From positions 1 to 64,000 of IMG/VR virus record IMGVR_UViG_3300037119_005846: a DNA stretch of 64,000 bases. One strand, given 5' to 3'. The stretch comes from a virus. Below the pieces are notes generated by a model. It had not been told where the DNA came from. It searched no databases and saw only the letters and a program-made list of their open reading frames with translations. Both the position numbers and the translations under genes were made by a program. Shown here one piece after another: positions 5,203-55,793 of the stretch. Within the stretch, counting starts at the first letter, position 1. Each line of letters starts with the position of its first letter.

Positions 5203-6411
5203 GTGATCGACACCTTAGACGGCCTGTACACCGCAGACGCGATGTGGACGGGGATGGTGCGCGAAGACGTCACCGCTCTTCTCGCGTCGACGTTCCCTGT
5301 CAAGCCACCGCGAGGCTGGTTCGAGAACCCCCAGTTCACGGCGGTGACGCCGATGACCGTGCAGTCAGACGGTCGCGTGATGGGGCACGTCGCTGGTTGG
5401 CGCGACAGTCACATCGGAATGGCCGGCGGTGTCAAGGCGCCGCGCAGCAAGAGCAACTACGCGTTCTTCAGTACCGGCGCGATCGAGTGCGATGACGGCA
5501 GTTATGTCAACGTCGGCCAGGTGACGCTGGCCGGCGGGCACGCGCCGCTGGAAGCGTCCGTGGCCGAGGCGGTCGCTCACTACGACAACACGAAGTCTGC
5601 AGTCATGGACGTCACAGCCGGCGAGGATGACTACGGCATCTGGGTCGCCGGCGCGCTCCGGCCTGAGGTCAACGAGATGCAGCTCCGCTCGATCCGAGCG
5701 TCAAGCGTGTCCGGCGACTGGCGGCCGATCAACGGGAACCTCGAGCTGGTTGCCGTCTGCGCGGTCAACGTCCCCGGATTCCCCATCCCGCGGGCCCGAG
5801 TGGCGTCCGGGCAGGTCGTGGCCCTGGTCGCAGCTGGGACCGAGGAACTGGTCTCTCAGGCCATCATGGACCGCGTCGGAGCAGACGTCATGGGCATTGT
5901 CACGGGCTCTGTCGGTGCGGTCAGCGAGCGCCTGGCGCTGGTCGAGGACGCGCTGCTCAACCGCGTGCGCGAGCGGCGCGAGCAGATCGCTGATGCGGTC
6001 GCGGCGGTCGTGGCCTCCGGTTCATCGGCCGCGGCCGCCGCGGATCTTCGCGCTCGAGTGCACGCGGTCACTGCCGCGGCAGGTGACACGTCGTGGGTCG
6101 ACGGCGCACCGATCGAGAACAGCACGGCAGAGTGCCTTCAGGCGAGTCTCCGCGCTCGAGTGGCCAGCGCTGAGATCGTCGGGACCGCGTCATCTCACTG
6201 GAAGTCCGAGAAGCGCAAGACAGCGGCAGCTAAGGGACAGGCGCTGCCGGATGGCTCGTTCCCGGTCGCTGACAAGACTGACTGGTACAAGGCTCGTCAG
6301 GCGCTCGGGCGTGCGAAGAATCGCGCTCGCGTCGTCAGGCACTTACGCTCTCGCGGTCGCACGCTGGGGATTCCGAAGAAGGAACTCGACTCTTTGCACG
6401 CGACGGCCTGA
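5203..6411 (+). CDS. Capsid maturation protease
   Basis: 402 residues from a GTG start; no Shine-Dalgarno is visible, but TAATAT lies eight bases upstream, so the message may be leaderless. The first ~220 residues match the actinophage head protease family: GGHAPLEASVAEAVAHYDN holds the likely catalytic His and RASSVSGDWRPING the likely catalytic Ser. The C-terminal ~60 residues (GQALPDGSFPVADKTDWYKA, then an RA..LGIP segment) are the Lys/Arg-rich tail often fused to these proteases. It would cleave the acidic N-terminus of the capsid protein encoded 1.3 kb downstream. The portal gene, normally adjacent, is 45 kb away. Confidence 0.9.
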   Translation: MIDTLDGLYTADAMWTGMVREDVTALLASTFPVKPPRGWFENPQFTAVTPMTVQSDGRVMGHVAGWRDSHIGMAGGVKAPRSKSNYAFFSTGAIECDDGSYVNVGQVTLAGGHAPLEASVAEAVAHYDNTKSAVMDVTAGEDDYGIWVAGALRPEVNEMQLRSIRASSVSGDWRPINGNLELVAVCAVNVPGFPIPRARVASGQVVALVAAGTEELVSQAIMDRVGADVMGIVTGSVGAVSERLALVEDALLNRVRERREQIADAVAAVVASGSSAAAAADLRARVHAVTAAAGDTSWVDGAPIENSTAECLQASLRARVASAEIVGTASSHWKSEKRKTAAAKGQALPDGSFPVADKTDWYKARQALGRAKNRARVVRHLRSRGRTLGIPKKELDSLHATA

Positions 6412-7671: not shown

Positions 7672-9522
7672 TTGAACGGCAACGACCAGTTCGATGATCG
7701 ACTCTCACGTCTCACTGAGCTCAATGACGACGAACTGTCCAACCTCGAAGAGGAAATGGTAGCGGCCTTCGATGCCGCTGACTCCGCCGGAGACGTCGAC
7801 CAGATGCAGCAGCTTGCTGATGCTCTGGACGGTGTTCGCGCAGAGAAGGCGAATCGCGAGAGCGCGGCCGGAACCGCCGAAGAGGCGACAGCACCTGCAG
7901 AGGAGGCGCCGATGGCGCCAGCCGTTGCAGCGTCCGCAGAGAGCGAAGACGAGAGTGGAGAGAACGACAAGCCCAATGGCGAGAGCGAAGCCACTCCGGA
8001 AGAACCCAGTGGAGACGAAGCACCAGGAGACGCGGAAGCCGCTCCCGAGGATGCGCCCGTCGAGCCACCGGACCCCGAGGCAGACGCCGTCGCATCCGAT
8101 GACACGACTAACGAGGAGGAGACCGTGAAGGTCACCAACGCGGACGTTCCCGCCGACAACCAGCCGGTGACGGCTTCCGCGGGTCCGGCCTACACCATCA
8201 CTGCTGGCGGGGACATTCCCACTATCACGGCCGGCAGCCCACTCAACGACATGGACGAAGTCGTCGATGCCATGGTCAAGAAGGTCAACGCCATGCGCGG
8301 CGTTGGCGGCGACGGCGAGCAGGTCATTGTCGCCTCACTTCGTCGAGATCTCGAAGACGAGTTCGGCGATGATCGTGTCCTGCGTCGCGGCGACACCGAG
8401 GGCAACTCTGCCAAGATCCGGAAGTTCAACCAGGAGAACCACACCGTCGAGTCGCTGACCGCGGCCGGCTGGTGCGCTCCCAAGACGCCGATGTACGACA
8501 TTCCCGGCGTCGGCTCGACGGCAACGCCCGTCGCTGACAGCCTGGCGTCGTTCGGCGTCGACCGTGGCGGGATCATCTGGACCGAGCCGCCCTCCCTGGG
8601 CACGTTCTCGACTCAGCTGGCGACACTCGGCGTCTGGAAGAACACGGCGACCCCGCCGACTCAGACGTGGCAGTACGTCCCGGGCACGACCGGCGCCGGC
8701 ACGCCGGCCAACACCAAGCCGTGCATCGACGTCCCGTGCGGCACAGAGCGCAGTGCCGAGCTGATCGCCATCCCGCTCTGCCTTTGCTTCGAGGTCCTCA
8801 TGAGCCGGGTCAACCCCGAGCTCGTGAAGGCGTCGACCGATCTGGTCCTCGTCGGTCAGGCTCGGTTCAAGGAGCAGTGGCTGCTGGCTCAGATGTTCGG
8901 AGCCTCCGGCGTGGTCAACACGCCGGCGACGATCGGCACGCCTGACACGCCGCTTGGTATCGCCCGCGACTTCCTCGTCGGCGTACGACTCGTGGCAAGC
9001 CAGTTCCGCTGGCGAAACCGTCTCGACGCGGGCCAGCAAGTCGTGCTCTACGCTCCGGCGTGGCTGCGCGACGCGATTGCCAGCGACCTGGCGATCCAGA
9101 TGCCCGGCGACGACACCCTCGACACCGGCTACTCCGAGGTCGACGGCTACCTGACCAGCGTCAACGTCAGCCCGGTGTGGTTCATCGACGACGTCCCGAC
9201 GGGAGTCGGCACCGGCGCGACTGCGGCAACGTCGAACTTCGACTCGTACCTCGGGTACGGGACACCGGCAGAGTGGCTGATGACTCTTCCCGGCGTCTTC
9301 ACTCGCCTCGACGGCGGGACGCTGGATCTCGGCGTGGTCCGCACCAAGGACGATGTCCTGGCCAACAAGTACTGCGAGTTCGCGGAGACGTTTGAGTCGG
9401 TTGCCTACATGGGACCGACCGTTGCCGCCAACGCGTGGGCAATCCGTGGCACGACGCCAGTCGCTCTCCGCGGTGGGTTCGCTCCCGCCGTGGCCAGCCT
9501 GACGAGTGTCTTCGCTGAATAA
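7672..9522 (+). CDS. Major capsid protein (HK97 fold) with N-terminal acidic scaffold-like domain
   Basis: 616 residues from TTG, with AGGTGAGGAG ahead of it. Residues ~1-155 are a Leu/Glu coiled-coil stretch (SRLTELNDDELSNLEEEM) followed by a very acidic, Ala/Pro-rich segment. I read this as a scaffolding (delta) domain to be removed by the upstream protease. The remainder is capsid-like; LTAAGWCAPKTPMYDIPGVG is the actinophage capsid signature region. The long leader (7573-7671) carries a possible TATACT at 7578. A perfect hairpin follows the stop, as expected for a gene expressed far above its neighbours. Confidence 0.92.
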   Translation: MNGNDQFDDRLSRLTELNDDELSNLEEEMVAAFDAADSAGDVDQMQQLADALDGVRAEKANRESAAGTAEEATAPAEEAPMAPAVAASAESEDESGENDKPNGESEATPEEPSGDEAPGDAEAAPEDAPVEPPDPEADAVASDDTTNEEETVKVTNADVPADNQPVTASAGPAYTITAGGDIPTITAGSPLNDMDEVVDAMVKKVNAMRGVGGDGEQVIVASLRRDLEDEFGDDRVLRRGDTEGNSAKIRKFNQENHTVESLTAAGWCAPKTPMYDIPGVGSTATPVADSLASFGVDRGGIIWTEPPSLGTFSTQLATLGVWKNTATPPTQTWQYVPGTTGAGTPANTKPCIDVPCGTERSAELIAIPLCLCFEVLMSRVNPELVKASTDLVLVGQARFKEQWLLAQMFGASGVVNTPATIGTPDTPLGIARDFLVGVRLVASQFRWRNRLDAGQQVVLYAPAWLRDAIASDLAIQMPGDDTLDTGYSEVDGYLTSVNVSPVWFIDDVPTGVGTGATAATSNFDSYLGYGTPAEWLMTLPGVFTRLDGGTLDLGVVRTKDDVLANKYCEFAETFESVAYMGPTVAANAWAIRGTTPVALRGGFAPAVASLTSVFAE

Positions 9523-26650: not shown

Positions 26651-26871
26651 CCGCGCGACGCTTCGAGCTGCATCGAGACGTCGACGTCACCGGCATCTCG
26701 GGTACCGGCGTCGTCGCCGAGGGAGTTCTCTTCTCCGATGACGTCGCCGTGCTTCACTGGGTCAGCCAGTGGCCGTCGTCGGTCGTTCACTACGAGCGCG
26801 GCATGGAGAGCGTTGAGCATGTCCACGGGCACGGCGGGCAGACGCGCATCGTCTGGCTGGACGAGTCGTGA
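26647..26871 (+). CDS. Small conserved actinophage protein
   Basis: 74 residues. RFELHRDVDVTGISGTGVVA, DVAVLHWVSQWPSSVVHYER and HGHGGQTRIVWLD define a small beta-barrel protein very common in actinobacteria and their phages; function unknown. Overlaps terminase by GTGA. Confidence 0.75.
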   Translation: MTARRFELHRDVDVTGISGTGVVAEGVLFSDDVAVLHWVSQWPSSVVHYERGMESVEHVHGHGGQTRIVWLDES

Positions 26872-28418
26872 CCAACGTCCTCGGCGAGCTCGACGACATG
26901 AGCCTGATGGAGCGCATCGCGCTTCTGCCACGAGACGAGCGCGACCGTGTGATCACCGGCCTGACCGACGCAGAGCTGAGTGATCCGCGGGTGTGGCTGA
27001 GGCCGAAGCAGCAGAAGGTGATGGACGACCCGTCACCGATTGTCGTTGTCGCGTCAGGTCGCGGATCAGGAAAGACTCGCATTGGCTCAAGCTGGACGAT
27101 CGAGAAGGCACGCCGTCCGGGCACACGCATACACTTAGTGGGGCGCACCGTCGCAGACGTCCGGGATGTCATGGTACAAGGCGACAGCGGGATTCTGAGT
27201 ATCAGTCCGCCCGACTTCAAACCGGAGTACGTGCCGTCAGTCAGGCGCTTGATGTGGCCGAACGGATCGATGGCGATCACGCACAGCTCGGAAACGGCTG
27301 ACAGCCTTCGCGGTCCGCAGGCAGACGCGACGTGGGCCGATGAAGCCGGGACGTTTAAGACGAAGCCAGACAGCTCCGGCGCGACGACTTGGGACAACAT
27401 TCTCCTGTCTACTCGTCTTGGGTCTCACCCGCAGATCCTCGTGACGACAACGCCTCGTCGCACCCGCATTATCAAAGAGCTGTTCGCTGACGCAAAGAGC
27501 GCGCCCGATCGTGTGTCGCTGCACATTGGTAGTACACTCGACAATCGCGCCAACCTCGCGCCGGAGTACCTCGCCAACATCATCGCGATGTACGACGGCA
27601 CGCCGCTGGCAGCGCAGGAGATCTACGGCGAGCTGCTCGACGAGGTCGCCGGCGCGATGTGGCGGGACACGGACTTCGTCTACGAGCCGGCGGACCGTGA
27701 TCTGCTGCCGGAGCTCGTGACCGTGATCGGCGTCGACCCGGGCCTGACGACGGGCGGCGACAGCACAGGCATCGTCACGGTTCGCGGGACGACGGATCGA
27801 TTGCTCACGGACAGGCGCGCGTGGGTGGCGCGCGACGACACCGAGAGCGGGGGCGGTGTGAGCCCTGACCGGTGGGCGGCGCGCGTCGTCGCCGTCTGGC
27901 GAGAAGAGACGGCGCTGTGTCGCCGGCCGGCGATCGTGGTAGCCGAGAAGAACGCCGGCGGCGAGCTGGTGTCGACCGTGATTCGCCAGACCGAGGGCGG
28001 GACGGAGATACCGATCGCGCTGGTGCACGCGAAGGGGAGCAAGATGGCGCGCGCCGAGCCGGTCTTGCTCGCGTACAGGCGCGGGCGCGTGCTTCATGAA
28101 GACGTGCTGCCGGAACTGGAAGACGAGATGACGTCGTATGAAGAGAGCTCGGGCTGGTCGCCGAACCGGCTCGACGCTGCCGTGCATGCTCTTCGGGCGC
28201 TGCTGGTGAACGACGAGGCGCTGCGGCGGTTCGGGTCGCTGTTCGCGGTGCGGCCCAGCGTCGAGTTCGGGACGAGCGCGTTCAGGGGCGGGGACCGGGC
28301 GCGCGGCGGGATGCGCGCGCCGCACCGGGAAGAGCGCGGGCCCGTGGCTCAGCCGATCGACGCGGGCAGTCGGTTCGACCTGCCCGTGACAGACTGGCAG
28401 CCTCGCCGGGAGACGTGA
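26868..28418 (+). CDS. terL: Terminase large subunit
   Basis: 516 residues from GTG. ATPase: Walker A VASGRGSGKT (residues 61-70), Walker B-like ATWADEAG (~154-161), motif III TTTPRR (~193). RNase H-fold nuclease: Asp290 in VIGVDPG, Glu360 in VVAEKN, Asp436 in SPNRLDAA. It packages DNA into the prohead. Unusually it is not next to portal or small terminase (both near 50 kb). The GTG overlaps the previous gene. Confidence 0.93.
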   Translation: MTNVLGELDDMSLMERIALLPRDERDRVITGLTDAELSDPRVWLRPKQQKVMDDPSPIVVVASGRGSGKTRIGSSWTIEKARRPGTRIHLVGRTVADVRDVMVQGDSGILSISPPDFKPEYVPSVRRLMWPNGSMAITHSSETADSLRGPQADATWADEAGTFKTKPDSSGATTWDNILLSTRLGSHPQILVTTTPRRTRIIKELFADAKSAPDRVSLHIGSTLDNRANLAPEYLANIIAMYDGTPLAAQEIYGELLDEVAGAMWRDTDFVYEPADRDLLPELVTVIGVDPGLTTGGDSTGIVTVRGTTDRLLTDRRAWVARDDTESGGGVSPDRWAARVVAVWREETALCRRPAIVVAEKNAGGELVSTVIRQTEGGTEIPIALVHAKGSKMARAEPVLLAYRRGRVLHEDVLPELEDEMTSYEESSGWSPNRLDAAVHALRALLVNDEALRRFGSLFAVRPSVEFGTSAFRGGDRARGGMRAPHREERGPVAQPIDAGSRFDLPVTDWQPRRET

Positions 28419-45219: not shown

Positions 45220-45401
45220 GTGATGAACCAGAAGTAGTCGAAGATGACTCCGAAGAGGTCGACTTCGAGATCGACTTGGACGCCGTGCCCGAGATGACGG
45301 GAGGGCGCTTTCCCGAGGAACTCGAGGAGCATCTCTCCGATCCCGTCGAGGAAGGCGAAGTGCCCGAGGTCGATGGGTCAGAAGAAGATGAGGTCGACTG
45401 A
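45216..45401 (+). CDS. Extremely acidic small protein
   Basis: 61 residues, ATGA overlap; about 28 Asp/Glu and a single Arg, no Lys. EVVEDDSEEVDFEIDLDAVP is typical. Sits between two lysins. Could be an inhibitor, chaperone or DNA mimic; nothing in sequence decides. Confidence 0.6.
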   Translation: MSDEPEVVEDDSEEVDFEIDLDAVPEMTGGRFPEELEEHLSDPVEEGEVPEVDGSEEDEVD

Positions 45402-46261
45402 TGGCGATCCTGTATCCATTCGGCTACGGCGACTGGGCGGCTCGGGTCACACTCGACACGCTGTTCGAGAAGGAGACGGTCCGCAAGCTGCACCCCGAGT
45501 ACCGGCGACGACTCAAGTCCTTGCTCGTCAAGGGTGGCGGTCGCTTCGGCATCGGCACCGGATGGCGCTCGTCGGACGTGCAGAAGTCGATCTTCCTCGC
45601 TCGTCACTACAAGGTCGCCTCGGGCGGGTGCTGCCGCTACGGCAACGCCCGCTACCAACTCAAGAAGGGCGTCGCCCACGCAGCTCCGCCTGGATCGAGC
45701 TTCCACGAAGCGGTCGTGCACGGCTGGGCCAGTGCCATTGATGCGATCGGTGACATCAACTGGTTGGCGCAGAACTGCGAGGCGTACGGCCTTGAGCAGG
45801 CGACGTGGGGGAACGAGGACTGGCACTACCAGTTCACCGAGTTCCCGCACTCGGTAACGCAGTGGCGTGCAGCTGGTCAGCCCGCTCCGAAGACGTGGTC
45901 AATCCCGGGCGTGCAGCCGCCGGTCGGCCCGCCGACTACCGGCTGGGCTGCCGCGGGAGCGAAGATGAGCACGCCGCCGGGCACGCCGACGCTGCGTCGC
46001 ACGGTCCAGCACAGCAACGTGCCGTGGCTTCAGGCGGTGATGTGCTCGATGCCGAAGCCGCCGGCAGACGGTGGCAAGCCGATCTATCCGCCGACCCGCG
46101 TCACGTCCGACCGGATCGGCGCTGGTCCCGTCGACGGCGACTTGTTCGGTGATCTGACGTACGAGGCCGTGCGCTACTGGCAGTCGAAGAACGCGCTCAC
46201 CGCGGATGGCATCTACGGGCCGCAAACGGCGGCGAAGCTGACCACAGTTCGCGGCAAGTAA
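45401..46261 (+). CDS. M15-type peptidase endolysin with peptidoglycan-binding domain
   Basis: 286 residues, one-base overlap. M15/VanY fold: GIGTGWRSSDVQ, GSSFHEAVVHGWASAIDAIG (His and Asp zinc ligands) and NEDWHYQF (third His). A Pro linker follows, then a binding domain (LFGDLTYEAVRYWQSKNALT, DGIYGPQTAAKL). It would cut stem peptides, complementing the 44431 glycan hydrolase. Confidence 0.85.
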   Translation: MAILYPFGYGDWAARVTLDTLFEKETVRKLHPEYRRRLKSLLVKGGGRFGIGTGWRSSDVQKSIFLARHYKVASGGCCRYGNARYQLKKGVAHAAPPGSSFHEAVVHGWASAIDAIGDINWLAQNCEAYGLEQATWGNEDWHYQFTEFPHSVTQWRAAGQPAPKTWSIPGVQPPVGPPTTGWAAAGAKMSTPPGTPTLRRTVQHSNVPWLQAVMCSMPKPPADGGKPIYPPTRVTSDRIGAGPVDGDLFGDLTYEAVRYWQSKNALTADGIYGPQTAAKLTTVRGK

Positions 46262-46792: not shown

Positions 46793-46999
46793 ATGAACCT
46801 CGCGGTCGTGGTCATGGGCGTCTGCGTCACCTTCTGTTTCGCCGCGGCCGTGGCATTGTTCTTCATTGATCAGTCGGCTGCAGCGTGGGCAACTCTCGTC
46901 ATCGCGCTGCTGTCTACGCTCTCGCTTCTCGCCATGGTCGTGTCGACCGGTCGCGCTGAGACGAGCGTCGCTGACATCAACTCGAGGCGGCGGCTGTGA
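46793..46999 (+). CDS. Two-span membrane protein
   Basis: 68 residues; hydrophobic segments at about 3-24 and 30-50, then a polar basic end (ADINSRRRL). GTGA-coupled to the MuF gene, which is odd for a membrane protein and may help infection or assembly at the membrane. Confidence 0.62.
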   Translation: MNLAVVVMGVCVTFCFAAAVALFFIDQSAAAWATLVIALLSTLSLLAMVVSTGRAETSVADINSRRRL

Positions 47000-49248
47000 A
47001 TACTCTCACCGCGGCCGTCGCGTACGACGTCACCGATTCCGCGGTCAAGGCGGTCGAGAGCGCGTCACGCGTCGCCGACGAGAAGACCGCGAGCACTGCC
47101 GCGCTAGCGCTGGCGATCGCGATGGACTCCGAGAACGAAGAGTCTGCGAGAGTGGCGGTCCTTAAAGATCCGCGCATCGCTCGCCTCAGTCTCGAGGCGG
47201 CGCAGGCGATCAACGACGCCGCCGAGCTCGCGGCCTGGCATCCGTCGCCGGATACGGATGCCGCGGTCAGCGGCAGTGTCAAAGATGCACTGCGAACACG
47301 TCGAACCGATGCCGAGCTCGCTGACACGATCCGGAGCACGGTCGCTGACGCAGCAGCGGCTAGACGCTCGACGGTTGAGACCGATGATGAGACGCCCGAC
47401 GCCGAGTCACGCCGTCACTGGAGTGATGCCGCCGGGCGCACTGCCGCGACACGGCTGGCAGCTGAGCGAGTCGTTGAGTCCATGCCGGTCGTGGAAGAAG
47501 CCGCCGGTGTCTCGCTTCACAAGCTCTGGCTGACTCAGGCAGACAGCCGCGTCCGGTCAAGTCATCGTCATCTCCAGGGTAAGACCGTCGAAGCTGACAA
47601 GCCGTTCTGGCGCGAGCTCGGCACCGACAAGCAGCTGCGCTTCCCGGGCGACCCAGAGGCGCCGCTGGATCAGACCGTGAACTGCCGGTGCTTCTTGTGG
47701 CTCGTCCCCGCGGACCAGGCGGCGGCCGCCGAGGAAACGTTCCAGATCAGTGACGATGACTACGCACTCGCTGCGTCTGTTAGTCGCCATCCGTCATGCG
47801 GGCTGCTACACGGAAATGCCGCGCTGATGACAGTCGATGAATTCGACGGTGCGGCCGACATCCTGTACGGTCTGACAGCAGCGACCGAGCGCAAGTACGA
47901 CGAGAGCAAGCACAAGCGCGACAAGGGCGGCAAGTTCTCGAAGCATGCCGGCCAGCAGGGCGGCACAGTTCACGAGCACAAGCGCTTCGATCGCAAGAAG
48001 TGGCTCGCCGAGGGTGGCTGGGACAGGGTCAGAGCCAAGTACGGTCTCGGCAAGGGCAAGGGCAAGGGCAAGGGCTCTGGCTCCGGCTCTGGCTCCGGCT
48101 CCGGCGGCGGAGACAGCGGCAGTGGAGACGACGTCGACGCGGGCAAGGCCTTTGACGACGCCGCCGAGCGTGCTCGCAAGCGCTTCGAGACAATACAGAA
48201 GGCTCTTCAAGATCGCAGAGATGAGATCGAGAACACTCGAGCATCGAACGAGGCTGATAGAAGGCAGCTTCAGGCGCAGGCCGACCTCGAGCAGATCACG
48301 CGGCGCGAGGGCGAGGACGCCGCGATGAGGAAGCGGGAGCAGATGGTCCGAGACGTTGAGCAAGATCTGCGCAAGCACCAGAGTGACGTCGAGCGGTCGC
48401 AGAACTTGATCCTCGGCATGCGCCTCCGCGGCGAGCTGCCGGACGTGATCGAGGCCGAGCGTCAGAAGCTCCTCCGGCTCAAGGGTGAGACGACCGAGCT
48501 GGTCAATCTCAGTCGCTCGCTCGGCACTCCCGACCAGGTGCGCGACCTGCGCGATCGCGTCCGCTCGAGTCGCCGCATTCAGGACGTCGGCACGCGGAAC
48601 AATCGCGCGGACCTGGATCGTCGGATCAGACTCGCGCAGCGCCGGCAAGATCAGGGCCTGCGAAACACTGAGCGCTCCGCGTCGCAGGACTACCAGAATC
48701 AGGTACGTGACTTGCGCGCTCGAGCGAACGAGGCGAGGAAGCAGGCGGCGGAGGCGAAGAGGGGTCGCCGCGCCTCGCTGGTTGGCGGCGGACACGCGGA
48801 CTCACCGCAGTCATGTGTCATCGCGCTCATTCCGAAGGGCCACAAGGAGATCGAGTACGAGTCCGGCGAGAAGGCTCCGGCACATCTGACGCTGGCATAC
48901 CTCAGTGACGGCAGCGACAACATCGAGGATGACTTTGACGCGATCGACGCGGCCGTTGCGCGCTTCGCTGCGAGTCGTCAGCCGTTCACCGTGACTGTCG
49001 CCGGTCGAGCTAACCTTGGCGAAGATGGAGATGACGTCATCATCGTTGAGGCGTCGGAGCTCGCTGAGGCGCGGGCCTGGGCGGAAAGTGAGCCGGGCAT
49101 CAGCGAACGCTGCGCTGCCAGTGATCACCCGCACTGGATTCCGCACATGACTGGCGTCGACGGTGACTACGGCGACGAGGTCGAGTTCGATCGCATCGGC
49201 GCGTGGTACGGCGACGACAAGCGAGAGTACCCGCTCGGCGGCGGGTAA
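46996..49248 (+). CDS. MuF minor head protein fused to a 2H phosphoesterase
   Basis: 750 residues from GTG. Residues ~170-240 are a MuF domain (LHKLWLTQADSRVRSSHRHL, then FPGDPEAPLDQTVNCRCF). A Lys-Gly/Ser-Gly linker (~350-370) and a ~200-residue charged coiled coil follow. The last ~140 residues carry two H-x-T motifs, APAHLTLAYL (48875-) and WIPHMTGV (49135-), spaced as in 2H phosphoesterases (LigT/Acb1-like). MuF proteins sit inside the head near the portal and can be injected, so the enzyme could act in the host on cyclic or 2'-5' nucleotides. Catalysis and delivery are inferred. Confidence 0.85.
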   Translation: MNTLTAAVAYDVTDSAVKAVESASRVADEKTASTAALALAIAMDSENEESARVAVLKDPRIARLSLEAAQAINDAAELAAWHPSPDTDAAVSGSVKDALRTRRTDAELADTIRSTVADAAAARRSTVETDDETPDAESRRHWSDAAGRTAATRLAAERVVESMPVVEEAAGVSLHKLWLTQADSRVRSSHRHLQGKTVEADKPFWRELGTDKQLRFPGDPEAPLDQTVNCRCFLWLVPADQAAAAEETFQISDDDYALAASVSRHPSCGLLHGNAALMTVDEFDGAADILYGLTAATERKYDESKHKRDKGGKFSKHAGQQGGTVHEHKRFDRKKWLAEGGWDRVRAKYGLGKGKGKGKGSGSGSGSGSGGGDSGSGDDVDAGKAFDDAAERARKRFETIQKALQDRRDEIENTRASNEADRRQLQAQADLEQITRREGEDAAMRKREQMVRDVEQDLRKHQSDVERSQNLILGMRLRGELPDVIEAERQKLLRLKGETTELVNLSRSLGTPDQVRDLRDRVRSSRRIQDVGTRNNRADLDRRIRLAQRRQDQGLRNTERSASQDYQNQVRDLRARANEARKQAAEAKRGRRASLVGGGHADSPQSCVIALIPKGHKEIEYESGEKAPAHLTLAYLSDGSDNIEDDFDAIDAAVARFAASRQPFTVTVAGRANLGEDGDDVIIVEASELAEARAWAESEPGISERCAASDHPHWIPHMTGVDGDYGDEVEFDRIGAWYGDDKREYPLGGG

Positions 49249-49257: not shown

Positions 49258-50055
49258 ATGAGCGCCGTCGAGAGCGAGCAGACCACGCCGCCGGCAGAAG
49301 ACAAGCGAGTCAGCGCCGACGGCGACGACCGCCGTGATCGCGCCGTCAGCTCGTCCGGCTTCTACGCGTGGCTCGCCAAGTACGCCGACGATCGGTACAG
49401 CCCCCTGAAGGAGAAGCTCGACCGCAAGGCGCAGAGAGCTGTGCTCGGTGCGACGTTCAGTCGCGAGAAGATCGCCGCCTATCTCGAGTACGACGAAGAC
49501 CTCATGACTCTGCTGACCAACGCGGAGATGGAGTGGCGCGCCGACATGGTCGCGAAGGACGGCCTCAAGGCGCACATGGAGGTCGACACCAGTCCACGCT
49601 ATGACTTCCGCGATCCGACGATGAGACGCGCCCAGACATGTCGGTATCGCGGTGCGAGTGGCGTGTGCGGGAAGGGCGCCGTTCCGGGCACGGTTCGATG
49701 CGGCGAGCACGGCGGCGAGCTGGTCGATGAGGTGACGCGGCGAGCGATCCTCATGACGAGTTACTTGCAGATTGTCGAGGCCAGCGGTGTCGCCGTCGAG
49801 GCGCTGGTCGATGTCGCGCAGCACAGTCGCAACGACATCGCTCGAGTTGCCGCCGCGAAGGAGATTCTCGACCGCGCCGGCCTCACGGCAGATCTTCAGG
49901 TCACGGTGCACATCGAGGGAGACGAGCGCAACGAGCGCATCTCGCGACTGCGGGACCGGCTCGACTCGATGCAGAAGGGACTTCAGAGCCGAGCGATCGA
50001 CGCTGTCGCTCGCGAGGAGAACATCGTCGACGCGGAGGTCGTCGCCGCGGGGTAA
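49258..50055 (+). CDS. Possible small terminase subunit
   Basis: 265 residues. N-terminal SREKIAAYLEYDEDLMTLLT is HTH-like; middle has a Cys/His cluster (CRYRGASGVCGKG, RCGEHGG); the end reads IARVAAAKEILDRAGL then coiled coil (RISRLRDRLDSMQ), as in several small terminases. Position next to portal supports the call. A different DNA-binding role is possible. Confidence 0.58.
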   Translation: MSAVESEQTTPPAEDKRVSADGDDRRDRAVSSSGFYAWLAKYADDRYSPLKEKLDRKAQRAVLGATFSREKIAAYLEYDEDLMTLLTNAEMEWRADMVAKDGLKAHMEVDTSPRYDFRDPTMRRAQTCRYRGASGVCGKGAVPGTVRCGEHGGELVDEVTRRAILMTSYLQIVEASGVAVEALVDVAQHSRNDIARVAAAKEILDRAGLTADLQVTVHIEGDERNERISRLRDRLDSMQKGLQSRAIDAVAREENIVDAEVVAAG

Positions 50056-50803: not shown

Positions 50804-52519
50804 GTGGCAGCACGACGGTTCTTCGATGACTCGACTAATCTCGCGAGACAACCGTACGCGACACCGCGTCCGATCGTTGGCTCCGTCGAGCGACTGAATC
50901 TGAGCAAGGGCAGCGAGCGAGTCGAGAAGCGTGCCGTCAGCGCATGGCAGACGAGCGCGTGGCAGATGTTCGACGCCATCGGCGAAGTCCACTTCGCCTT
51001 CAGTCTGATCGCTCAGATCCTCAGTCGGGTCCGGATCTTCGCCGCGATCGTGCAGCATCAGGACGAGGCACCTGTCGACGTCAACGACTTTGTCAAGTCT
51101 CTTCAGGGCGACGCAGAAGTCGACGCTCCGAACACGCGCGAGGCCTGCGAAGAGGCGACCAAGATCCTTAACCAGCTCGTCCTCAACGCGCACGGCGGCA
51201 TCAGCACGCTGCTCAGACTGATGGGGTTGAACCTCTGCGTTCCCGGCGAGATGTACCTTCTCTACTTCAAGGATGAGTGGCACATCGCCAGCGTTGACGA
51301 GCTGACGCAGAGCGGCCAGACGCTGTACTACCGGACGATGCGGACCTCTCCTAACACCGGCACCAAGGCAACAGCTGGTCGCGGCGAACCGCTGCCGAAG
51401 GACGCGTTCGTCGCGCGCATCTGGCGACCGCACCCACGGTACTCCGGCGAGCCGGACAGCTCGATGCTCGGAGTCCTTGATGACTGCGAACTGCTCGTCC
51501 TGCTCGAGCAGTCGATGAGGACGATCACGCGGAGCCGGATGAACGCCGGCGTGATGTTCATCCCCGAGGGACTCGCGTCGTTCGTTGCCGGCGACGAGGC
51601 AATGAGTGTCGAGGATGCGATCAGTCGAGCTAGCATCGAGAGTGTTGAGAACGAGACGGCTCAGGCGACCGTGGTGCCGCAGATTCTGAAGGGCCCGCCC
51701 GAGCTCGGCGACAAGATCAAGTGGATCCCGTATGGTCGGCAGATCGACCAGCAGTTCGTCGAACTCGTCGACAGGACGTTGCAACGCGTCCTTCAAGGGA
51801 TCGACATTCCGAAGGAAGTCGTCTCCGGCCTCGCTGACGCGAAGTTCGCTAACGCGATCGTGATCACAGATGAGCTGTTCAAGGCGCATGTCGAGCCGCT
51901 CGTGCTCTTGTGTGTCGATGCACTGACGCAGGTCTATCTGAGGCCGCTGCTCAAGCGAGCACTCGGGATTGCTCCGGGCTCGGACGCGGACAGTGATGGC
52001 TCGAACATCGCTAACCGGATCATCATCTGGGCCGACACCGCCGGTATCGCTACGCGACCCGACAAGAGCCAGGCGGCGAACGACGGCTTCGACCGGAAGG
52101 TCCTCAGCGCCAAGGCGTGGCGTGACACGCGAGGGTTCACGGACTCCGACGCGCCAGAAGAAGAGGAGCTGCTGTTCCGCGTGGCGCTTCAGAGCGCGGT
52201 CATCCCGCCGGAGATCGTCGAGGCGGTGCTCAAGCGGATCGACCCGGCGTTCTTCGCAGCAGCTCGCGCGGCTAACTCGGAGATCCCACCGGAGATCGAG
52301 CAACTGCTCGAGCCGGTGCTCGGGCCACCACCCGGCGAGGCACCATCAGCCGCCGGCGGGGCGGGCACTCGGCCGTCGTCTGGCACCACGGCGCCGCCGG
52401 TGAATCCAGCGCCGCCGGGGGCCGCGCCGCCGTCCGCGCTGACGACGCAGCTGAATGGCGCGGACATCAACACGAATGGCTCGAAGCCACCGCGAGCCGG
52501 CGAAGCGGCACTCCGCTAG
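50804..52519 (+). CDS. Portal protein
   Basis: 571 residues from GTG, no Shine-Dalgarno. SAWQTSAWQMFDAIGEVHFA then SRVRIFAAIV is the actinophage portal front; GEMYLLYFKDEWHIASVDEL and a KWIPYGRQIDQQFVELVDRT / LQGIDIPKEVVSGLAD section form the core and crown. The last ~60 residues are a Pro/Ala-rich tail. Forms the dodecameric DNA channel. Downstream, not upstream, of MuF, the reverse of the usual order. Confidence 0.88.
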   Translation: MAARRFFDDSTNLARQPYATPRPIVGSVERLNLSKGSERVEKRAVSAWQTSAWQMFDAIGEVHFAFSLIAQILSRVRIFAAIVQHQDEAPVDVNDFVKSLQGDAEVDAPNTREACEEATKILNQLVLNAHGGISTLLRLMGLNLCVPGEMYLLYFKDEWHIASVDELTQSGQTLYYRTMRTSPNTGTKATAGRGEPLPKDAFVARIWRPHPRYSGEPDSSMLGVLDDCELLVLLEQSMRTITRSRMNAGVMFIPEGLASFVAGDEAMSVEDAISRASIESVENETAQATVVPQILKGPPELGDKIKWIPYGRQIDQQFVELVDRTLQRVLQGIDIPKEVVSGLADAKFANAIVITDELFKAHVEPLVLLCVDALTQVYLRPLLKRALGIAPGSDADSDGSNIANRIIIWADTAGIATRPDKSQAANDGFDRKVLSAKAWRDTRGFTDSDAPEEEELLFRVALQSAVIPPEIVEAVLKRIDPAFFAAARAANSEIPPEIEQLLEPVLGPPPGEAPSAAGGAGTRPSSGTTAPPVNPAPPGAAPPSALTTQLNGADINTNGSKPPRAGEAALR

Positions 52520-52904: not shown

Positions 52905-53117
52905 ATGAACGACCTGCGCAAGAGCAAGTTCGAGACCAAGGTAGCAGCGGCTGAGGCCGCCGTTGCCGCCGGCGCCAAGCTGTACGTCGGTGGACGACGT
53001 ACCGTCGCCACTGCAGAGGAAGAAGGCGAGACACGGGTGTATAACCTCGGCGGCGGTGAGGGCGCCTACCAGTGGCGCTGGCTGACCGCGCTGGATGATC
53101 CGAGTGGCATTCGGTAA
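52905..53117 (+). CDS. Hypothetical protein
   Basis: 70 residues from ATG 52905. Helical start, then AGAKLYVGGRRTVATAEEEG and a Trp-rich end (YQWRWLTALDDPSG). Its 3' end contains the next promoter's -35. Confidence 0.58.
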   Translation: MNDLRKSKFETKVAAAEAAVAAGAKLYVGGRRTVATAEEEGETRVYNLGGGEGAYQWRWLTALDDPSGIR

Positions 53118-53133
53118 CATCACAATGTATAAT
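53105..53133 (+). promoter_or_regulatory. TGG-class promoter, copy 6 (Ku gene)
   Basis: TGGCAT, 17-base spacer with TAACATCACAATG, TATAAT (53128-53133). Start predicted at A53140, giving a 60-base leader. Confidence 0.72.
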
Positions 53134-53140
53134 GACATCA

Positions 53141-53163
53141 GCCAGCCGGCGAACCCGGCTGGC
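53141..53163 (+). promoter_or_regulatory. Hairpin at the 5' end of the Ku mRNA
   Basis: GCCAGCCGG/CCGGCTGGC, perfect 9-bp stem, 5-base loop, beginning one base after the predicted start. Likely stabilises or regulates the leader. Confidence 0.5.
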
Positions 53164-53199
53164 ACCAGGACTTCAGACACAGACAAAGGAACCAACCCA

Positions 53200-54009
53200 A
53201 TGCACGCAACAGCCCCAGTGCCGAACCGATCGACGTCATCGTTTGTCGTCTCCTTCGGCCTGATCAACATCCCGGTCAGCGTCTACACGACGGTGGCCGA
53301 GACCAAGGTCGCCCGCAAGGAGTTCACCGCGGACGGCCACGCCGTCGGCCGTAAGCCGTACGACAAGGAAACGGGCGCTGACGTCAACTTCGGTGACGTC
53401 GTCAAGATGGTCGAGGTCGGCGGCGCCACAGTGCCGCTGTCCGACGAGGAGATCGCTGGCGCGACCGGCCACGTCGCCGGTGTCGCGCCGATCGTCGGCC
53501 GCGTCTCGATGACCGAGCTCAACTCGGACTTCATTGCCGAGCGCGTCTACCAGCTTCGCCCGAAGAGCGACAAGAAGGTTCAGAAGGCGAGTGATCGCGC
53601 ATTTGCGCTGCTGATCGCCACGCTGAAGGAGACAGACGAGGCCGCGCTGGTGCGAGTCAGCATCCGCGGCACTGTCGCCAAGTGGGGCGCGATCACACCG
53701 GACGGGTACCTCCGCATCATCCACAGCGCAGACCAGGTGAAGGCGGCGCTGCCAATGCCCGACGCGGTCGTCACCGAGAAGGAGACGGAGCTCGCCAAGG
53801 CACTCCTTGGCGCGATCCCGACACTGGCCGTGGAGGACCTCCGTGACGATTCCAGTGAGCGGATTGCCGCATACGTCGACGAGAAGCTGGCTGCTCTGGC
53901 TGGCACTGGCACACTGCTGACCGAGCCGATGGCTCTGACGCCGGCCGCGGTCGATGACATGTTCGCAGCGCTTCAGGCAAGCATGGACGCCCTCGTGGCG
54001 AAAGGATGA
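53200..54009 (+). CDS. ku: Ku-like DNA end-binding protein
   Basis: 269 residues from ATG 53200 (AAAGGAACC ahead); the longer ORF start lies in the promoter. SSFVVSFGLINIPVSVYTTV is the bacterial Ku opening; GDVVKMVEVGGATVPLSDEE, FIAERVYQLRPKSDKKVQKA and AFALLIATLKETDEAALVRV follow the Ku core in order. Bacterial Ku rings bind DNA ends and recruit LigD. Mycobacteriophages Omega and Corndog carry Ku, proposed to help join genome ends with host LigD. No ligase is in this window. Has its own promoter. Confidence 0.9.
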   Translation: MHATAPVPNRSTSSFVVSFGLINIPVSVYTTVAETKVARKEFTADGHAVGRKPYDKETGADVNFGDVVKMVEVGGATVPLSDEEIAGATGHVAGVAPIVGRVSMTELNSDFIAERVYQLRPKSDKKVQKASDRAFALLIATLKETDEAALVRVSIRGTVAKWGAITPDGYLRIIHSADQVKAALPMPDAVVTEKETELAKALLGAIPTLAVEDLRDDSSERIAAYVDEKLAALAGTGTLLTEPMALTPAAVDDMFAALQASMDALVAKG

Positions 54010-54015
54010 AATGAA

Positions 54016-54207
54016 ATGATCACACCACAACAGCGGCTGGCTGCCAGCAACAAAGCGAACGCCAAGCGTCGAGCACTGTCAGCCGAGACGAAGGGTCTGG
54101 CCGACTGCGGTCGGGCCTCGTCTGGTCGGTATAGCACTGGCTGCCGATGTGACGCGTGTCGCACGGCAAAGCGCGAGTACGACGCAGCGAGAATTGCCAC
54201 CGCGTGA
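54016..54207 (+). CDS. Cys-motif micropeptide (GCRCDACR)
   Basis: 63 residues, AAAGGATG site. Basic helix then GRYSTGCRCDACRTAKREYD, a Cys cluster frequent in small actinophage proteins, perhaps zinc-binding and nucleic-acid related. Confidence 0.65.
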   Translation: MITPQQRLAASNKANAKRRALSAETKGLADCGRASSGRYSTGCRCDACRTAKREYDAARIATA

Positions 54208-54221
54208 TAGTGTCCCGTGTC

Positions 54222-55793
54222 ATGAGGGCACGGGTGGCGGCACTGTTGGTGGCGAGTGCGGCGGTGATCGGGATACCGGCTGTTGCTCTCACGGAATCGG
54301 GTGGTGTGGTGCAGGGCGGCGGGTCCTACACCACGACCTCCCATCCGTCGTACACAACGACGACGACGACGATCACTCCACCCACCAGCACCTCCTCCCC
54401 GTCCACCACGACTACGACGGCGGGTTCGACCACTACGTCCTCTACTCCGACCTCTACTTCGACTACGAGCGTGGTGACTTCTACGAGTACGACGACTACG
54501 ACCTTGACAACTACGTCCACGACCGCAGCGTCGACCACCACGACGACTGAGGTCATCAAGAAGGTCTTTGTCTGTAAGTTCGTGGGGACGCCGGGAGTTG
54601 ATGAGAGACTTCAGACTGGTCAGAACCCGATCTCGGTCAGCGTCAACGCCATCCCCAACTGGGACGGCGTGATCGGCTCCTTCTTCGCTGACGCCCAGGG
54701 CCGCAGTCGGGTGATCGCCTTCGACGTCGGCCAGCCCGAACCTGACGTGTCTCAATGCCTCCCTGGTGGTGGTACAACAACTACATCGTCAAGCACCACG
54801 ACAAGTTCGACCACCGCGCCAAGCACGACGACCTCCACCGTCGTGCCTACGAGCACGTCTACGACGACTTCCACCCCATCTTCTACGACGACGACTTCCT
54901 CGACTTCTACTTCCCTCCCCCAGATCACACCGTTCGCGATCGAGGTCGCCCCGCTGTGCCCGGACGGGACGACACCGCAGATCGAGATCACGTTCGGGGT
55001 ACGCCCTGATCTGAACGGTCAGACCGGCACCCTGAGCTTCTCCACCGGAGGGTCGGTCCCGTTGGTGTTCAACTCGGGTGGGACGACCGACATCGCGTAT
55101 CCGGCGTCGGCCGGGACCGGGCCGGTGACGATGACCTACACGTTGGGGGCCGAAAGTGTGGAGCGCTCGACGACCTTCCCCGAAGCTTGTGAGGTGACGA
55201 CATCAACGACCACGACGACCTTGATTGGCACGACGACGTCTACAGCGGCTCCGACGACGACGACCGCTCCGTCGACATCTACAACGAGCACCAGCAGCAC
55301 GTCCGTGCCATCCTCGACGACTACTTCGTCGACCACCTCAACGACCCTGCCTGACACGTTCACGTTCGGCGCGGCCGGCACGGTGTGCGTGCGTGAGGTG
55401 CCGACGATCCGCATCACCTTCCAGAACCTGTTCCCGTCCCTCGCCGGGCAGACGGGCACTCTGACCATGACGGCGGCGGCAACGGGCGAAGTCGTTGGCG
55501 TCCAGTCCCTCGTCTATGAACCCGGGACGACAGTCGACATCCTCTACCCGGGGACGCATGTCAATCCCGACGGCTCCGTGGCCGACGTCCCCGGGTGGAT
55601 TCTCAACGAGGACGGCTTCTGGATTCAGGACCCGTCCGATGCCTTCCTCCGCGACGGCATTTTCCTCACTTACGAGGTGAACCCGACGGCAGGCCCGGTG
55701 CTGGTGCTTTACCCACCCGAGTCGAGCGCCTGCGCCAACCCGGACGGCCCGTTCCCGCCGTTGAATCCGAACCAGCTGCCGCCTACCGCGTAG
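54222..55793 (+). CDS. Secreted mucin-like Thr/Ser-rich protein with three domains
   Basis: 523 residues from ATG 54222; GTG 54210 in frame is an alternative. Residues ~1-22 are a signal peptide (RARVAALLVASAAVIGIPAV). Three Thr/Ser/Pro-rich linkers of about 90, 45 and 50 residues separate three folded parts (FVCKFVGTPGVDERLQTGQN; PFAIEVAPLCPDGTTPQIEI; FTFGAAGTVCVREVPTIRIT), each with a conserved Cys and G-x-x-G-T-L turn. No LPxTG or membrane anchor. Probably exported to the host surface; linkers are likely O-glycosylated. Unusual next to Ku and recombination genes. Confidence 0.78.
   Translation: MRARVAALLVASAAVIGIPAVALTESGGVVQGGGSYTTTSHPSYTTTTTTITPPTSTSSPSTTTTTAGSTTTSSTPTSTSTTSVVTSTSTTTTTLTTTSTTAASTTTTTEVIKKVFVCKFVGTPGVDERLQTGQNPISVSVNAIPNWDGVIGSFFADAQGRSRVIAFDVGQPEPDVSQCLPGGGTTTTSSSTTTSSTTAPSTTTSTVVPTSTSTTTSTPSSTTTTSSTSTSLPQITPFAIEVAPLCPDGTTPQIEITFGVRPDLNGQTGTLSFSTGGSVPLVFNSGGTTDIAYPASAGTGPVTMTYTLGAESVERSTTFPEACEVTTSTTTTTLIGTTTSTAAPTTTTAPSTSTTSTSSTSVPSSTTTSSTTSTTLPDTFTFGAAGTVCVREVPTIRITFQNLFPSLAGQTGTLTMTAAATGEVVGVQSLVYEPGTTVDILYPGTHVNPDGSVADVPGWILNEDGFWIQDPSDAFLRDGIFLTYEVNPTAGPVLVLYPPESSACANPDGPFPPLNPNQLPPTA

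Follow-up and report, generated by a model that had tools for sequence, protein, structure and literature searches.

Fusions of 2H phosphoesterase domains to MuF or portal domains are among the polyvalent phage proteins of Iyer et al. 2017 (PMC5512222), which in the part dealing with them offers two options: a Usb1-like RNase, for which parallel MuF-PBECR RNase fusions are cited, or an enzyme degrading 2′-5′ oligoadenylate and counter-invader nucleotides. The corresponding part of Iyer et al. 2022 (PMC9503650) makes the same proposal for SMODS, cyclic-nucleotide and CRISPR systems. Phage T4 packages and injects an enzyme, Alt (cited as such in PMC5512222). In SPP1 the portal targets a few copies of gp7, the best-studied MuF protein, to the inside of the procapsid, and of the SPP1 virions without it only ~25% are infectious (PMC6316719). 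Toxin-bearing MuF genes have been reported only in temperate phages, their activities being those of RNases, RelA-like enzymes and ADP-ribosyltransferases (PMC5576092). Known anti-CBASS enzymes, Acb1 (PMC9117128) among them, figure in the literature as stand-alone phage proteins rather than as head-protein domains.

The window analyzed here is a stretch of 64,000 nucleotides from a 96-kb IMG/VR virus record (IMGVR_UViG_3300037119_005846). Like the fusions of Iyer et al., it has a 2H domain on a MuF head protein of a tailed phage, and the same proposal of packaging, injection and action against immune signals applies; the fusion type and the injected-enzyme idea are therein already published. 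The 2H subfamily found here differs in being phage-only in the collections searched and in standing also before or after a prohead protease. Where the two papers treat such fusions, a protease fusion is described for Nudix, and a 2H-protease fusion is not named. Relative to those parts of the papers, what is added here is the frequent prohead-protease fusion, a shuffled domain order, an occurrence confined to phages in the collections searched, and a near-invariant active site.

The MuF-2H gene and its surroundings

Features of the window, with the evidence for each, are:

5203-6411, + strand: prohead maturation protease, a separate gene (phrog_859, E = 3.5e-59; phrog_18402, 1.4e-55)
7672-9522, + strand: major capsid protein (phrog_777, 8.7e-63)
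26868-28418: terminase large subunit (TerL)
45401-46261: endolysin-like gene
46996-49248, + strand: MuF-helical-2H fusion protein of 750 aa (P0001), an open frame with GTG start and high codon-usage score
47404-47715, + strand: MuF (phage head morphogenesis) domain, aa 137-240 (PF04233, PHROG 3517, relatives' profile, invariant columns)
47917-47937, + strand: RDKGGKF motif, aa 308-314, following MuF within a basic stretch modeled at low confidence
48043-48132, + strand: Gly-Lys/Gly-Ser low-complexity linker, aa ~350-379 (KGKGKGKGSGSGSG...), from sequence and low pLDDT at 352-378
48130-48783, + strand: charged helical region, helices at aa 379-478, 482-509 and 512-596 (AlphaFold2 pLDDT mostly 70-90; composition)
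48796-49245, + strand: 2H phosphoesterase domain, aa 601-750 (PF13563, AlphaFold2, Foldseek, HxT motifs)
49258-50055, + strand: probable terminase small subunit (TerS; phrog_2538, E = 0.0059, weak)
50804-52519, + strand: portal protein, the expected docking partner of MuF (phrog_776, 1.1e-84)

The gene lies in the late region, its GTG start overlapping the stop of the preceding ORF (GTGA). The order there is endolysin-like gene, MuF-2H, TerS-like gene, a small phrog_781 protein and portal, so that both a terminase gene (weak match) and a portal gene (strong match) are near. The genes of SPP1 gp7 and other MuF proteins likewise lie in the portal/packaging region, although gp7 carries no enzyme domain. 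The head genes of the record are split: protease and capsid are near its start, TerS-like, MuF and portal genes are ~40 kb away, and TerL is in between. Shortly downstream of the portal, a Ku-like DNA end-binding protein is encoded (53095-54009, + strand; Pfam Ku, 3.9e-19; phrog_4873, 1.4e-12), and at 54156-55793 (+ strand) a protein of 545 aa that has a signal-like N-terminus and a very high content of Ser/Thr repeats.

Read from the N-terminus, the 750-aa protein has MuF, the Gly/Lys/Ser linker, a region of long helices (~220 residues) and the 2H domain (601-750). Its N-terminal half matches PHROG head-morphogenesis families (phrog 3517, 1.4e-18). PF04233 scores 27.7 bits (4.7e-6), ~2 bits below its cut-off of 29.6, and a MuF profile built from relatives scores the window domain at 1.3e-34. 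The conserved MuF pattern (W178...H190...G195...PG217-218...C230/C232; W-D-VR-H-G-PG-NCRC) aligns with the relatives. The initial annotation, a MuF head protein with a C-terminal 2H phosphoesterase, a Lys-Gly/Ser-Gly linker and a long coiled coil, is borne out for the two domains and the linker; the coiled coil survives as predicted long helices at aa 379-596, their pairing going beyond what helix prediction gives.

Fold and active site of the 2H domain

Against Pfam, the C-terminal 150 aa score 35.6 bits with 2_5_RNA_ligase2 (PF13563; cut-off 27, E = 1.2e-8) and 24.4 with LigT_PEase (PF02834; cut-off 23.3), and because both are above cut-off the two HxT motifs are not due to chance. The motifs are HLT at aa 630-632 (48883-48891) and HMT at aa 717-719 (49144-49152); the latter had been placed exactly beforehand, and the former two nucleotides too early, at 48881. 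Among PHROGs, the domain alone matches ‘head maturation protease’ phrog_18402 (7.4e-10, at 405-557 of 861) and ‘RNA ligase’ phrog_2659 (2.3e-9). A search of the 96-kb virus record gave no second PF13563 domain.

Structure prediction of the C-terminus, which the initial annotation had proposed as a check, returned a 2H fold. The AlphaFold2 model, from a 50-sequence alignment, has a mean pLDDT of 88, and all eleven of its Foldseek matches in the PDB below 0.001 are 2H proteins, among them rotavirus VP3 2′-5′ phosphodiesterase, plant CPDase, YjcG, LigT and similar proteins, and Usb1; this settles the fold as 2H, although TM-scores are modest (0.4-0.66). By sequence and model, then, the domain is a member of the 2H phosphoesterase superfamily. 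Among viral models, the best named Foldseek matches come from phages of Microbacterium, Rhodococcus and Gordonia and are all head proteins.

A phmmer search of the PDB with the single window domain gave no match. With the family profile the best match is penguinpox cGAMP phosphodiesterase (4.6e-5). This avipoxvirus enzyme (PDB 9bkq; PMC11410667) has in common with the family the elements LG...V...PxWxPHxTxGY; it differs in being an animal-virus protein of known activity, and is reached only through the family profile, not by the window sequence.

Both HxT motifs are unchanged in 82 of 82 aligned domains from viral contigs, at a mean column identity of ~40%. The pattern that fetched these domains fixed W and PH near the second HxT, so the evidence that does not depend on it is the first HxT, the second T, L674, G675 and V681, along with a separate alignment of 20 phage sequences. 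In that alignment H39, T41 and H126 never vary, and 19 sequences retain the second T, Xkcd426 having lost it. The relatives otherwise diverge to ~26-38% identity with the window domain. Together with the head-gene linkage described below, these patterns point to a real enzyme, one probably enclosed in the prohead. The window copy itself may be altered in activity and calls for caution: where nearly all relatives have an LGYP segment after the second HxT, this copy has none (it reads HMT-GVDGDYG), and it also sits on a long branch of the domain tree.

Phage relatives and their domain layouts

A TBLASTN search with the 2H domain over 50,697 phage records matched 72, from phages of Microbacterium, Arthrobacter, Gordonia, Rhodococcus and Curtobacterium; among the matches listed (60 of 72), all are in genes annotated as, or sited among, head genes. 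We mapped domains on 18 phage records with a 2H match and on Xkcd426. The majority layout is MuF-2H-protease; the order is 2H-protease in Kithara, Sunfish and RubyRalph and protease-2H in RoadKill and Lilbeanie, while Rhodococcus phages ReqiPoco6 and Pepy6 have an N-terminal 2H without MuF or protease, in genes beside TerL and a ‘structural protein’.

Among the closest known counterparts are actinophage proteins annotated as ‘capsid maturation protease and MuF-like fusion protein’ (in Arthrobacter phages Tank and Ranunculus and Microbacterium phages Nike and CandC). They join MuF to a 2H domain of the same subfamily, with 28-34% identity to that of the window, and are encoded between portal and capsid. 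They hold MuF, 2H and protease in one protein, whereas in the window virus the protease is separate, ~41 kb away, and the 2H domain is C-terminal, after the ~220-residue helical arm.

A profile-guided scan of IMG/VR gave 80 loci, or 81 ORFs including L002. MuF-2H-protease accounts for 41 of the 81 and 2H-protease for 2; MuF-2H is found in 5, of which 4 are cut by the contig end, one of these 4 being with a portal. Three more are open frames of >2200 aa adjoining portal. In these (L055, L066 and L070, cut by the locus end) the 2H domain is near the N-terminus and the neighbors are portal and MuF genes; they are large polyvalent-type head proteins. About two dozen ORFs are short (213-546 aa) with N-terminal 2H, and in over half of them GxKGMKWG follows the domain (15 of the 25 complete short ORFs, which are ReqiPoco6-like, e.g. 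L006, L101 and L086; none of the MuF/protease fusions). With the profiles used, no portal or capsid genes were found in the fetched DNA beside many of these short ORFs, so their head linkage rests on the context in the Rhodococcus phages. An RDxxGxF/RGADGRF motif, possibly a head-protein signal in common with the window protein, is also near the 2H domain in L065, L055, L066 and L070, whose layouts are other than MuF-2H-protease.

The sole close relative of the window protein is L002, another contig of the same virus (100% identical over 12,450 bases), and one distant MuF match, L108, was found besides; the exact MuF-helix-2H layout is a singleton among the sequences searched. The 2H family as a whole is widespread and mosaic, with at least six domain orders involving MuF, prohead protease or a place beside the portal, and at least 14 layout changes needed on the domain tree, where long-branch placements are unsure. 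Since the domain has repeatedly been joined to different prohead proteins, we argue that presence in the prohead is what matters.

Outside phages, two pattern scans of 84,980 prokaryote genomes found no relative of the 2H family (the scans being motif-based, divergent copies could be missed) and TBLASTN of plasmids found none of the 2H domain; a similar pattern run on viral contigs gave 101 relatives. In the collections searched, the subfamily thus looks phage-only and not integrated in host genomes.

Several of the head genes are named ‘RNA ligase’ (MK977704, MW314850, PQ868964 and others); they encode 2H-bearing prohead-protease proteins, and the records searched yielded no RNA ligase domain. 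The label is likely a misannotation from ‘2′-5′ RNA ligase’.

Substrate and role of the enzyme

What is directly seen is the domain make-up, the 2H fold, the near-invariant active-site residues and the linkage to head genes. The explanation we prefer, tentatively and at somewhat less than an even chance, is that this is a minor head protein whose 2H domain is packaged, enters with the DNA and most likely cleaves an early host nucleotide, pre-empting defense. By analogy with SPP1 gp7 and T4 Alt, MuF would bind the portal so that a few copies are enclosed in the prohead, the helical arm would carry a catalytically competent 2H domain kept in the virion, and the enzyme would enter the host with the DNA. 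Its target might be a host nucleotide of early infection, either a cyclic di- or trinucleotide or a 2′-5′-linked oligonucleotide, cleaved by the usual metal-independent HxT/HxT chemistry before a nucleotide-triggered defense could act. A literature search for virion proteomics of family members gave nothing usable.

The initial annotation had compared the enzyme with Acb1 in anti-CBASS. Its suggestion of a packaged enzyme gains from the pairing of MuF with 2H, the conserved catalytic residues and the steady link to prohead-interior proteins, and an injected enzyme degrading nucleotide immune signals would fit; the Acb1-like activity is compatible only. Acb1 resembles the window domain as a phage protein with 2H fold and HxT/HxT tetrad (common to the whole superfamily), and differs as a small separate protein of weak fold similarity. 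By fold it ranks 38th (0.01), behind 2′-5′A, CPDase, LigT and Usb1 enzymes. The Acb1 Pfam family (PF23474) matches 3 of 50 relatives weakly (best 0.0017) and has no match to the window protein at E ≤ 1, by which Acb1 family membership is ruled out.

RNA ends or 2′,3′-cyclic phosphates are the substrates of many 2H proteins of solved structure, and the fold matches here include CPDase, LigT and Usb1. The packaged domain might accordingly cut or repair RNA on entry instead of removing a nucleotide signal, as a Usb1-type RNase (the first option of PMC5512222) or on the 2′,3′-cyclic phosphate ends of tRNA or rRNA cut by anti-phage nucleases. Sequence and fold are compatible alike with RNA ends and with cyclic or 2′-5′ oligonucleotide signals. 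RNA ligase PF09414 and KptA PF01885 are absent in the window virus and 13 relatives (14 records), however, and no tRNA genes were found in the 96-kb record, which together speak against an RNA-repair cassette. Still, the ligase might be supplied by the host, and an RNase would work by itself. We regard action on RNA as somewhat unlikely. Immune nucleotides are favored as the substrate over RNA ends only modestly, because the family profile resembles the poxvirus cGAMP phosphodiesterase, RNA-repair partners are missing, and the enzyme would be present from the moment of entry.

In most relatives the 2H domain is inside a prohead-protease polyprotein, which works during assembly, so the domain could instead assist in building the head, or be a structural part of prohead proteins, with no action in the host at all. 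Catalytic residues that stay invariant amid the divergence given above would be needless in a purely structural module, and a nucleotide or RNA substrate inside the prohead is hard to name; we consider this role improbable. Least likely is a phage-delivered toxin. MuF polymorphic toxins (PMC5576092) do combine MuF with a variable enzyme at the C-terminus, but they have been reported from temperate phages only and with the activities listed at the outset, whereas the 2H family was absent from the prokaryote genomes in the pattern scans; nor was an immunity gene noticed.

Returning to the packaged, nucleotide-cleaving enzyme, its extension to the whole phage-only subfamily, as a general head-packaged ‘first-strike’ phosphodiesterase that removes immune messengers before phage gene expression, is an unlikely though not negligible proposition. 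A head-carried enzyme would act at once on entry. Behind the actinophage gene labels ‘RNA ligase’ and simple ‘capsid maturation protease’ there is thus a probable effector domain. As the domain also occurs in phages of Arthrobacter, Microbacterium and Gordonia that can be cultivated, the 2017 prediction is open to direct test. If the ‘first-strike’ proposition is true, virulent actinophages would arrive with anti-CBASS or anti-2′-5′A activity in the particle.
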